Assembly: GCA_944390365.1 (NCBI GenBank)
Contig: CALXPW010000008.1
Span: forward strand, 1 to 40,459
DNA length: 40,459 nucleotides
Source of the DNA: an uncultured Clostridia bacterium
GTDB lineage: Bacteria; Bacillota; Clostridia; TANB77; CAG-508
Direction of reading: 5' to 3'
Shown: in pieces, positions 4,510 to 36,726 of the stretch
Numbering within the stretch: the stretch's first letter is position 1
How the letters are laid out: each line of letters starts with the position of its first letter
Notes under the pieces: model-generated
Told to the model about the DNA's origin: nothing
The model's input: the letters and a program-made list of their open reading frames with translations, nothing else
Database searches by the model: none
Program-made: the position numbers and the translations under genes

Positions 4510-4753
4510 ATTTTTTGAGAAGGTAAACAAATCTAGGTCACCTATTTATTTATTTTAAATTTTCGACTTAAGGTGGGGACCGACAAGTTACAGTATGTGA
4601 AAAAATTACTCTTGAAGAAAAAACTTTTTTTTCTTCAAGGTAGAATTTAGTATCATCCCATTGTAATTTTTTCTACAGACTGTTACGTAGTTGGGGGTCG
4701 AAAATAAAAATAAATAAATAGGTGACCTAGATTGTTTTATACCTTCTCAAAAT
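4510..4753. ncRNA. G-core structured palindromic element, copy A
   Basis: Lies between the convergent ger operon and rnr. The arms 4530-4556 and 4707-4733 are a perfect 27-bp inverted repeat; outer arms continue imperfectly (GAGAAGGTA at about 4516 against TACCTTCTC at about 4740) into the 3' end of rnr. The core at 4557-4706 carries AAGGTGGGGACCGACAAG near its left side and GTAGTTGGGGGTCG on its right. Predicted nested stems are CGAC/GTCG, CCGAC/GTTGG, ACAGTATGT/ACAGACTGT (one mismatch), AAAAATTAC/GTAATTTTT, and an apical CTTGAAGAAAA/TTTTCTTCAAG hairpin. No clear U-tract follows on either strand, so the transcribed strand is unknown. Confidence 0.6.
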
Positions 4754-8999: not shown

Positions 9000-9009
9000 G
9001 GAAAATACT

Positions 9010-9101
9010 ATTTCAGCAAAAGGGGACGGGCTTAAATTGTAAAAAAAGGTAACATAATTAAAGCCTTTTTACAATTTAAGCCCGTCCCCTTTTGCTGAAA
9101 T
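9010..9101. repeat. Perfect 36-bp palindrome of the GGGGACGGGC family
   Basis: Bases 9010-9045 and 9066-9101 are exact inverted copies, separated by a 20-base loop (9046-9065). Each arm contains GGGGACGGGCTTAAATTG. The same sequence, slightly diverged, forms the outer arms around element copy B (17952-17980 and 18233-18262). It follows the holin-like gene by ten bases and may end transcription in both directions. Perfect arms imply recent origin or active correction. Confidence 0.85.
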
Positions 9102-9112
9102 TTTGCTTAATT

Positions 9113-17115: not shown

Positions 17116-17985
17116 ATGCAAAAGCTTATTGTTGATAAAAAGTTTGATAATAAAAAAGTAAGTGAATATCTTTTTTCTAAGTTTAATGGACTTACCCAAA
17201 ACACATTATATAAAGCCTTTCGAAAAAAGGATATTAGAATTAACAATGTAAAAATTAGCGAAGATAGCATTATTCACTTGAATGATGAAATTACGGTTTA
17301 TATTATTGATGATTTATTATTTAAGAAATTTAACATAGAAAGAGTTTATGAAGACGAAAATATTTTAATAGTAAACAAGCCGAATAATATAGAAGTTGTT
17401 GGAAATGATTCTTTGACTAGTATCTTGGAAAAGGAATATACATATATAGCCCCTTGCCATAGATTAGATAGAAATACTACTGGCTTACTTTTATTTGCCA
17501 AAAATGAAAAGGCATTAAATATACTTCTTGATAAGTTTAAAAATAAAGAAATTGAAAAACATTATTTAGCTAAAGTTTATGGTATACCATGTAAGAAGTC
17601 TCAAAATCTTGTAGCTTACTTATTCAAAGATAATAAAAAGTCTATGGTATACATATCAGATGTGCCAAAAAAGGGTTATGTAAAAATTAAAACTTCTTTT
17701 ACGTTGTTAGAAGCAAACCAAAAAGAGAATTATAGCTTGTTAGACGTAGAACTACACACAGGGAAAACGCACCAAATTAGGGCTCATCTAGCTCATATTG
17801 GCTTACCAATAATTGGTGATGGCAAATATGGCATAAATGAAGTTAATAAAAAATTTGGTTCAAAGACTCAAGAACTTTGTAGCTATAAATTAAAATTTAA
17901 TTTCACAACAGATGCAGGAATTTTGAATTATTTAAAAGGGAAAACTTTTCAGCAATTGGGGACGGGCCTAAATTGTAAATTTTAG
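17116..17985 (+). CDS. RluA-family pseudouridine synthase
   Basis: Converts uridine to pseudouridine in rRNA or tRNA. The 289-residue protein has an N-terminal S4-like RNA-binding region (about 1-65, with LYKAFRKKDIRINNVKISED) and the RluA catalytic domain. The active-site motif is PCHRLDRNTTGLLLFAKN (about 113-130; catalytic Asp in HRLD), and the late motif HTGKTHQIRAHLAHIGLPII is intact. The last residues, QQLGTGLNCKF, are encoded by the GGGGACGGGC palindrome that surrounds element copy B, so the C-terminus is repeat-derived. The exact target uridine is not predictable. The gene converges on ftsH. Confidence 0.9.
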   Translation: MQKLIVDKKFDNKKVSEYLFSKFNGLTQNTLYKAFRKKDIRINNVKISEDSIIHLNDEITVYIIDDLLFKKFNIERVYEDENILIVNKPNNIEVVGNDSLTSILEKEYTYIAPCHRLDRNTTGLLLFAKNEKALNILLDKFKNKEIEKHYLAKVYGIPCKKSQNLVAYLFKDNKKSMVYISDVPKKGYVKIKTSFTLLEANQKENYSLLDVELHTGKTHQIRAHLAHIGLPIIGDGKYGINEVNKKFGSKTQELCSYKLKFNFTTDAGILNYLKGKTFQQLGTGLNCKF

Positions 17986-18262
17986 CTTTTAAATGTATAA
18001 ACTTCGGCTAATTAATAGTCGTGTATATTTTTTATTTATATTGTAGTCTTAAGGTGGGGACCAACAAATTACAGTCTGTATAAAAATTACTCCTCAAGAA
18101 AAAACATGTTTTTTCTTGAGGGTAGAAATTAGGCAAAACTATAGTAATTTTTGTTACAGACTGTTATGCAGTTGGGGGACGGAAATATAAATAAAAAATA
18201 TACACGACTATTTAATTTTATATAATTAGAATAATTTGCAATTTAAGCCCGTCCCCAATTGC
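17952..18262. ncRNA. G-core structured palindromic element, copy B
   Basis: Fills the 295-base space between rluA-type and ftsH 3' ends. Outer arms 17952-17980 and 18233-18262 belong to the GGGGACGGGC palindrome family. Inner arms 18014-18041 and 18185-18212 are a perfect 28-bp inverted repeat. The core 18042-18184 holds AAGGTGGGGACCAACAAAT and GCAGTTGGGGGACGG, with stems GTC/GAC, CCAAC/GTTGG (5 of 5 paired), ACAGTCTGT/ACAGACTGT (9 of 9), AAAAATTAC/GTAATTTTT and an apical CTCAAGAAAAAACA/TGTTTTTTCTTGAG hairpin. Confidence 0.65.
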
Positions 18263-18280
18263 CAAAAAATTAACATAATT

Positions 18281-34887: not shown

Positions 34888-35111
34888 ACTTTAAGATGGT
34901 TACAATTCACTCTTGTCCTTTTTCGAAGCGAAGTATGTTTTAATTTTATGTTGTAGCGCTTAAGGTGGGGACCGACAAGTTTACAAACTGTTAAAATGAA
35001 CGAATGTGAATTTTATACAGTTTGTACGCAGTTGGGGGGCCGGAAACATAAAATTAAAACATACTTTACTTCGACATTTTAGGGTGAACCGTGAATTGTA
35101 ACTTTAAGATG
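34888..35111. ncRNA. G-core structured palindromic element, copy C, with flanking direct repeats
   Basis: Occupies most of the 373-base gap between recN and lysS. Inner arms 34931-34952 and 35045-35066 are a perfect 22-bp inverted repeat; TCGAAG/CTTCGA and the outermost GTTACAATTCAC/GTGAATTGTAAC (34899-34910 and 35091-35102) extend it with interruptions. The core 34953-35044 holds AAGGTGGGGACCGACAAG and GCAGTTGGGGGGCCGG, with CCGAC/GTTGG and ACAAACTGT/ACAGTTTGT stems. It lacks the apical hairpin of copies A and B. ACTTTAAGATG occurs at both ends (34888-34898 and 35101-35111), the right copy being the end of recN. Confidence 0.65.
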
Positions 35112-36726
35112 CTTTTCGTAATTCCTTTGCATGTGCAATTGAAATTTCTGTAATATCTCCTGAAGAAATTCTTGCAATTTCTTCTACAACCTCTTCTTCG
35201 TTTAATCTTTTTATTTCTGTATATGTTTTTTCGTTTGTTGTTTTTTTGCTAATGTAATAGTTATATTTTCCCTTTGCAGCAATTGAAGCTGAATGTGTAA
35301 CTACCATTACTTGATGATTGTTTGATATTGTTTTTAATTTTTCTCCTACTGCTTTTGCAGCTTTCCCACTAATACCAGTATCAATTTCGTCAAAAACTAA
35401 TGTAGATACTTTATCTACTTCTGCAAGAACTGTTTTTATTGCAAGCATTACTCTAGACATTTCTCCTCCTGATGCAATTTTGCAAAGTTCTTTTTCTTCC
35501 TCACCTTTATTTGTGCATATCATAAATTCTACTTTATCTAAGCCGTTTGCATTAAAGTCTTTTATTTTTTCTACTGCAACTCTTAAGTTTGCATTACCCA
35601 TTTCTAGGTCTTTTAATTCTATGCTTATTTTATTTGAAATAATTTTTGCATACTCACATCTTAGTAAATTCATTTTCGAGCATAATTCTAGCATTTGTTT
35701 TTTGACGCTTTCTATTTCTTGTTTTAGCTTAGCATTTATCTCATCTAAATTTTCTATCTCGTTAATTTCTTGCTCTAATTTTTCTTTGTATTCTAATATT
35801 TCCTCTATACTATTTCCATATTTTCGTTTTAGTGAAAATATTTCATCTAATCTTTTTTCTACATTATCTCTTTGGTCCTCATCAAAAAATATATCTTCTT
35901 TCATTCCAGATATATCTCTTGCAAGTTCTTGTATTTCATAATATATATTTTTTAATTCTGATAGTTTTTCTTCGTATATTTCTCCACAGTTTGAAATTTT
36001 TTCTAAACATCTTATCGAATTGGATACACTTTCTATAGCTTGATTATTTAAATTTTCATCTATTTCTTCTAAATTTTCTTGTAGCTTTTCAGAATTTTTC
36101 ATTAGATTATGTTCTTCAGTTAATTTAATGTCTTCTCCTACTTTTAATTTTGCATTTTTTATTTCCTCTAGCTGGTAATTAAGTAAATCTAACTTTCTTT
36201 CCTTTTCCTTGTCATCTCCATAATTTTTGCTTAATTCTGCATTTATCTCGTTATATCTTTTATATAATTTTGAATATTCAGTTTTTAATTCTAATATTTC
36301 GTTTCCTATAAAATCATCTAAATATGAAATATGTTTATTTGAATTTAGCAAGTTTTGGTTATCTTGTTGACCGTGTATATCTATAACATTTGACATAAGT
36401 TCCTTTAGTTCATTTACGGTTACTAAACGTCCATTTACTTTGCACGAATTTCTACCGTTTGTATATACTTCTCTTGATACTATGATATTTCCATCTATGG
36501 AATTAGGATTTTCTGGGCAAAATATACTTGCTTCTATAAATGAATATTTTTCTCCATTTCTTATCATATCTTTCGAGAATCTTCCTCCTGCTATAACACC
36601 CAAAGCACCAATTATAAGTGTTTTTCCAGCACCAGTTTCTCCTGTAAGCACATTAAAACCCTCATTAAAATCTATAGACAAATCTTCTATAATTCCTATG
36701 TTTTTAATATGTAATGTAGATATCAT
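35104..36726 (-). CDS. recN: DNA repair protein RecN
   Basis: SMC-like ATPase that acts early in double-strand break repair. The 540-residue protein has Walker A TGETGAGKT (28-36) in FNVLTGETGAGKTLIIGALG, a long coiled-coil middle (about 150-370), and the C-terminal ABC part with signature KIASGGEMSRVMLAI and Walker B LVFDEIDTGISGKAA. It is slightly shorter than typical (about 555-570). AAGGAGG precedes the ATG. It has a strong own promoter with a possible LexA-like site. The last codons overlap the right repeat of element copy C. Confidence 0.96.
   Translation of the reverse strand: MISTLHIKNIGIIEDLSIDFNEGFNVLTGETGAGKTLIIGALGVIAGGRFSKDMIRNGEKYSFIEASIFCPENPNSIDGNIIVSREVYTNGRNSCKVNGRLVTVNELKELMSNVIDIHGQQDNQNLLNSNKHISYLDDFIGNEILELKTEYSKLYKRYNEINAELSKNYGDDKEKERKLDLLNYQLEEIKNAKLKVGEDIKLTEEHNLMKNSEKLQENLEEIDENLNNQAIESVSNSIRCLEKISNCGEIYEEKLSELKNIYYEIQELARDISGMKEDIFFDEDQRDNVEKRLDEIFSLKRKYGNSIEEILEYKEKLEQEINEIENLDEINAKLKQEIESVKKQMLELCSKMNLLRCEYAKIISNKISIELKDLEMGNANLRVAVEKIKDFNANGLDKVEFMICTNKGEEEKELCKIASGGEMSRVMLAIKTVLAEVDKVSTLVFDEIDTGISGKAAKAVGEKLKTISNNHQVMVVTHSASIAAKGKYNYYISKKTTNEKTYTEIKRLNEEEVVEEIARISSGDITEISIAHAKELRKAS

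Follow-up and report, generated by a model that had tools for sequence, protein, structure and literature searches.

A probable MITE-type transposon with a 9-bp target-site duplication at the end of recN in an uncultured Clostridia bacterium

Described systems closest to the recN-lysS palindrome

Bacterial MITEs, such as the Correia/NEMIS, RUP and ERIC elements, are presented in two reviews as elements of about 200 bp or less with TIRs and a target-site duplication, and as AT-rich, mainly intergenic, hairpin-forming sequences that lack a transposase gene and occur in many copies (PMC2229807, PMC10969869). The palindrome lying between recN and lysS that is considered here, copy C, and the family to which it belongs are like them in these properties. 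Most of the MITEs in the table of PMC2229807 have terminal TA, whereas the TIR of copy C is GTTACAATTCAC and the duplications are 8–9 bp long. In the C family, the arms also diverge in sequence yet remain complementary, and they enclose a core that is asymmetric and conserved, an arrangement not found described in the accessible parts of PMC2229807 and PMC10969869.

The REP elements and BIMEs of REP-associated tyrosine transposases (RAYTs) are a second point of comparison (PMC2817692). They resemble other copies, here called B-type, which have outer arms similar to REP hairpins and occur in a genus with RAYT-like genes, but they are unlike copy C, which lacks arms of this kind and shows a duplication, whereas the REP-bounded copies have none. 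Template switching between inverted-repeat arms is reported to homogenize the arms and invert the spacer (PMC8604942). The cases in PMC8604942 and PMC8794818 are similar to the present one in that the arms diverge yet stay complementary and the spacer flips, but they concern yeast coding sequences and RNA hairpins rather than a dispersed bacterial MITE, for which the same mechanism may be proposed.

Ends and anatomy of copy C

The window (the whole stretch of 40,459 nucleotides analyzed) contains the 11-bp sequence ACTTTAAGATG at 34888–34898 and again at 35101–35111, exactly where a preliminary description had placed a putative 11-bp target-site duplication, attributed to insertion of the palindrome just after recN by a mobile process. 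The right-hand copy shares two bases (35101–35102) with the outer arm of copy C and is the natural end of recN (35104–36726, minus strand), both as first described; it covers the last codon and stop of the gene, and recN is, thus, intact. Copy C is bounded by a perfect 12-bp TIR (GTTACAATTCAC at 34899–34910 and GTGAATTGTAAC at 35091–35102), giving the layout TTTAAGATG – GTTACAATTCAC ... GTGAATTGTAAC – TTTAAGATG, in which a 9-bp repeat (34890–34898 and 35103–35111) is flush with the TIR on both sides. The leading AC of the 11-mer (34888–34889) falls outside this parse; the element also ends in these two bases, and this identity is a coincidence, a chance extension of the 9-bp duplication. The duplication itself is retained, but the length of 11 bp is rejected, because only 9 bases lie flush with the TIRs and 8 bp is the rule in the family. 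The element is 204 bp long, with no ORF of at least 80 amino acids inside it, and its parts are as follows.

34890..34898, no strand: left copy of the target-site duplication, TTTAAGATG (from the sequence and the family flank statistics)
34899..35102, plus strand: probable C-type MITE, 204 bp, TIR-bounded (modal length of the 61 family members, 203 bp)
34899..34910, plus strand: left TIR, GTTACAATTCAC, read from the sequence
34923..34952, plus strand: left inner arm, 93% complementary to 35045–35074, covarying across the family
34959..34978, plus strand: conserved left core, CTTAAGGTGGGGACCGACAA (61 copies in genome G000 at ≤3 mismatches; reversed control 0)
34983..34990, plus strand: inner hairpin stem, left strand, ACAAACTG (copy alignment and covariation)
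35018..35025, plus strand: inner hairpin stem, right strand, CAGTTTGT (copy alignment and covariation)
35031..35038, plus strand: conserved right core, GTTGGGGG (copy alignment)
35045..35074, plus strand: right inner arm, partner of 34923–34952
35091..35102, plus strand: right TIR, GTGAATTGTAAC, read from the sequence
35103..35111, no strand: right copy of the target-site duplication, including the recN stop and last codon

Flank duplications across the family

The C-type ends can be written GTTACAATTCACRG. Left and right TIRs were paired in 2.5 Mb of DNA, yielding 61 distinct TIR-bounded elements, copy C included; all are from the genus of G000, and orthologues from related species were scored as separate entries. 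Forty of the 61 are 189–211 bp long, 203 bp being the commonest length, and the C-type right-end pattern has 44 matches in eight genomes of the genus. Short forms with an internal deletion (49–67 bp) have the same TIRs, confirming the C-type ends, and some of these also have perfect 8-bp duplications. Expected values were obtained from swapped pairs, in which the two flanks compared, left and right, belong to different elements. Perfect 8-bp flank duplications were observed at 12 of the 61 elements, against 0.02 expected, and 8-bp duplications with no more than one mismatch at 22, against 0.17 expected. Flank identity jumps at 8 bp, in smaller sets too, with no perfect case at 5, 6, 7 or 10 bp among the 61, and the only perfect 9-bp duplication is that of copy C (background 0.00 per 61). 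The 61 elements are not fully independent, given the orthologues, yet the margin far exceeds that effect. The real 8-bp pairs and the 9/9 match at copy C are so far above the swapped-flank background that the repeat at copy C cannot reasonably be put down to chance. A coincidental direct repeat beside a palindrome that arose in place would be in keeping with the single locus, with the lack of a repeat at two other copies in the window (A and B) and with a duplication length one base off the family norm, but it is extremely improbable in view of the flush match at ends defined by the TIRs, the 8-bp signature of the family and the recurrence of the C-type unit of about 203 bp at unrelated sites.

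Copy C is, thus, best explained, with a probability of about 0.92, as a non-autonomous, geneless, MITE-type DNA transposon of 204 bp with 12-bp TIRs and a 9-bp duplication. It is called a MITE because it is short and without a transposase gene, has TIRs and a duplication of fixed length (8 bp in the family, 9 bp in copy C), and is dispersed in multiple copies. The insertion by a mobile process just after recN that was first proposed is supported by the family duplications flush with the TIRs. A transposase acting in trans would cut the target with a stagger of 8–9 bp, the element would be joined at the staggered cut, and gap repair would then make the duplication; in copy C, the cut would have run across the end of recN, one duplicate keeping the last codon and stop. 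Several observations count against the MITE reading: the duplication of copy C is 9 bp, one base away from the family norm of 8 bp; there is no clean empty site at recN-lysS; neither an autonomous element nor a matching transposase was found in the DNA and the families searched; and several of the element-free sites in G020 are relics of deletion. With this reading, what had been an ambiguous palindrome is an insertion whose ends, length and cut spacing are known. The case also shows that, where a clean empty site is lacking, family-wide statistics can serve to check a target-site duplication suspected in a metagenome-assembled genome.

The recN-lysS locus in relatives

RecN orthologues were collected from the genus, with one genome per species, for comparison of the locus. 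The closest relatives, G020 (RecN 98% identical), G007 (97%) and G021 (96%), all lack copy C, and none of the three has a second copy of CATCTTAAA after recN; a single ATCTTAAA is present at the end of recN in G020 and G021. The recN-lysS interval of G020 contains a short hairpin, AAAATGGACATACCTCCATTTT, and that of G007 and G021 contains a different palindromic element (L092 and L093), whose orientation is reversed between these two species. The core of this element has TGTCGGTCC in common with the C-type core. No clean empty site at recN-lysS is present in G020, G007 or G021, and the joined flanks of G000 match no relative exactly. The comparison of relatives suggested in the preliminary description has, thus, produced the single copy of the repeat but not the clean empty site, other palindromes being present in the interval; the locus agrees with a duplication and falls short of a textbook empty site. 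In G029, a C-type element lies directly after that genome's own recN.

Several G020 sites without the element are deletion relics retaining an outer arm, which indicates that absence there records loss, rather than later insertion in G000. The G020 absences at L002, L017, L022/L023, L034 and L057, where the outer arm is kept, were therefore rejected as pre-insertion sites.

Copies A and B and the REP-type palindromes

The window holds two further copies of the core.

4567..4586, plus strand: copy A, left core of the module shared with copy C (no recognizable C-type TIR)
17943..18271, plus strand: copy B, core at 18048–18067, inside GGGGACGGGC REP-type outer arms (17943–17981 and 18233–18271)

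Neither has a repeat comparable to that of copy C, as the preliminary description had noted; the coincidence at copy C that it considered on this ground is strongly disfavored by the family statistics, and the absence of repeats is ascribed instead to ends that are not C-type, because copy B has REP-type arms and copy A has no recognizable C-type TIR. Among the palindromes bounded by GGGGACGGG (with GCAAAAGGGGACGGG arms), 31 of 39 contain the core, copy B included, and none of the 39 has a duplication. A solo REP-type hairpin with perfect 36-bp arms (GGGGACGGGC), of the same kind as the arms of copy B, is located at 9010–9101 of the window.

Genes for Y1 transposases (RAYT-type) were found in 24 of the 30 genomes of the genus, and one of these genes, in G020, has GGGGAC hairpins on its flanks. 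These genes, and the frequency of the core in GGGGACGGG-bounded palindromes, are what might be expected of a REP/BIME-like palindrome spread by a RAYT without duplication. For copy C, such an origin is highly improbable, as this copy has a different TIR, no GGGGACGGG outer arm and a duplication of a fixed length (8–9 bp) that contradicts it, whereas it is possible for the B-type copies. Copy C, with a duplication and without REP hairpin arms as its ends, falls outside the REP/BIME class, which the B-type copies fit. The occurrence of one core within both kinds of ends raises the possibility, doubtful but worth stating, that the arms and core constitute a portable structured module captured by two unrelated mobile ends (a TIR element with 8–9-bp duplications and RAYT-type REP palindromes) and conserved since its fold would be needed in cis for spread.

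Candidate transposases

Duplications of about 8–9 bp are known for the insertion-sequence families IS256, ISL3, IS6, IS1595 and ISLre2. The duplication of copy C is within this range, but the IS256, ISLre2, ISL3, IS6/IS240 and IS1595 transposases are absent from G000, and none of the five is present in the genomes with the most C-type ends (G025, G029, G020, G021 and G007); the search covered these five families in draft genomes, in which missing contigs could hide a transposase. Within the genus, the IS256 transposase (PF00872) is confined to G001, G004 and G012, ISLre2 to G018 and G027, and IS6/IS240 over the cut-off to G017; there is no ISL3 over the cut-off and no IS1595. An IS256-derived MITE was rejected, as PF00872 is not present in G000 and the C-type right-end pattern matches nothing in the three genomes that have it. 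No autonomous element, with C-type TIRs 0.33–4 kb apart and a duplication, was present in the 2.5 Mb searched, and no multi-copy transposase was recognizable by eye among the ORFs that occur more than once in a 1.27-Mb portion of G020.

The conserved core and its complementary arms

The core (CTTAAGGTGGGGACCRACAA) is present in 61 copies, all outer types counted and up to three mismatches allowed, in the 1.59-Mb genome G000 (reversed control 0). In the 57 genomes searched, it was detected in 18 of the 29 other species of the genus, or 19 of 30 genomes with G000 included, whereas the 26 genomes outside the genus have none; its distribution within the genus is patchy, with 0 to 61 copies per genome. 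Among the matches listed, exact core matches came from uncultured Clostridia and Clostridium genomes obtained from metagenomes, and viral contigs contained no exact match. The C family appears to be an undescribed MITE family, one that accounts for dozens of palindromes in small Clostridia genomes in which few ordinary insertion sequences were found.

The fold of an alignment of 54 of the G000 copies has a long outer stem, an internal loop that is asymmetric and conserved, and an inner hairpin; the asymmetric core has nearly invariant positions. Changes on both sides with pairing kept are seen at 28 of the 45 predicted pairs (sequences, not events, were counted), and one-sided changes are rare in the long arms. 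Between copies, the identity of the arms is 63%, versus 52% for a shuffled control; within a copy, the complementarity of the two arms is about 94% where they align locally. The unusual part of the family is this combination of a core conserved in sequence with arms that are free in sequence but kept in pairing.

The predicted fold of copy C is strong as RNA (z –9.8), and this, together with the nearly invariant core and the covarying arms, could mean that the module of arms and core serves mainly as a structured RNA that the host retains as a regulator or terminator, its mobility being secondary. Where the genes beside it are codirectional, the core of the G000 copies (L001–L061) was antisense in 23 cases and sense in 10 by a crude ORF call, a possible antisense bias that would suit such a role. 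A chiefly RNA-based function is nevertheless unlikely, as the fold is strong as DNA too (z –8.95), several G020 sites no longer have the core, copy number within the genus varies as given above, and the arm mismatches (31 G-T, 22 A-C) show no clear difference, so that neither strand stands out as the one that pairs as RNA. In Rfam, moreover, neither copy B nor copy C has a match, and no family fits the core. Every Rfam hit in the window falls far short of the gathering score, and the hits lie chiefly on the solo hairpin (9009–9102), where miRNA hits were rejected as matches of this low score to a perfect hairpin.

Under the MITE reading, the long inner arms may have been kept complementary by copying of one arm from the other through template switching during replication, which would also flip the core, as at one orthologous site. 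At that site, L033, the core is inverted inside the arms relative to the G020 orthologue (L138), with flanks of 455 and 395 bp. A second apparent inversion, at L042, was discarded, the G020 match being about 44 bp of REP arm and paralogous. L007 and the orthologous G020 copy (L146) have almost the same core, but both arms have been replaced together. Template switching fits both the complementarity of the arms and the flip of the core, in which it may have had a part, and the pattern of arms and core provides a natural test of template-switch homogenization against compensatory selection. At the G020 orthologue of L009 (L140), the same intergenic site is occupied by a third structured palindrome, with CTGTGAAAAGTAAC, which is close to the C-type TIR, nearby.
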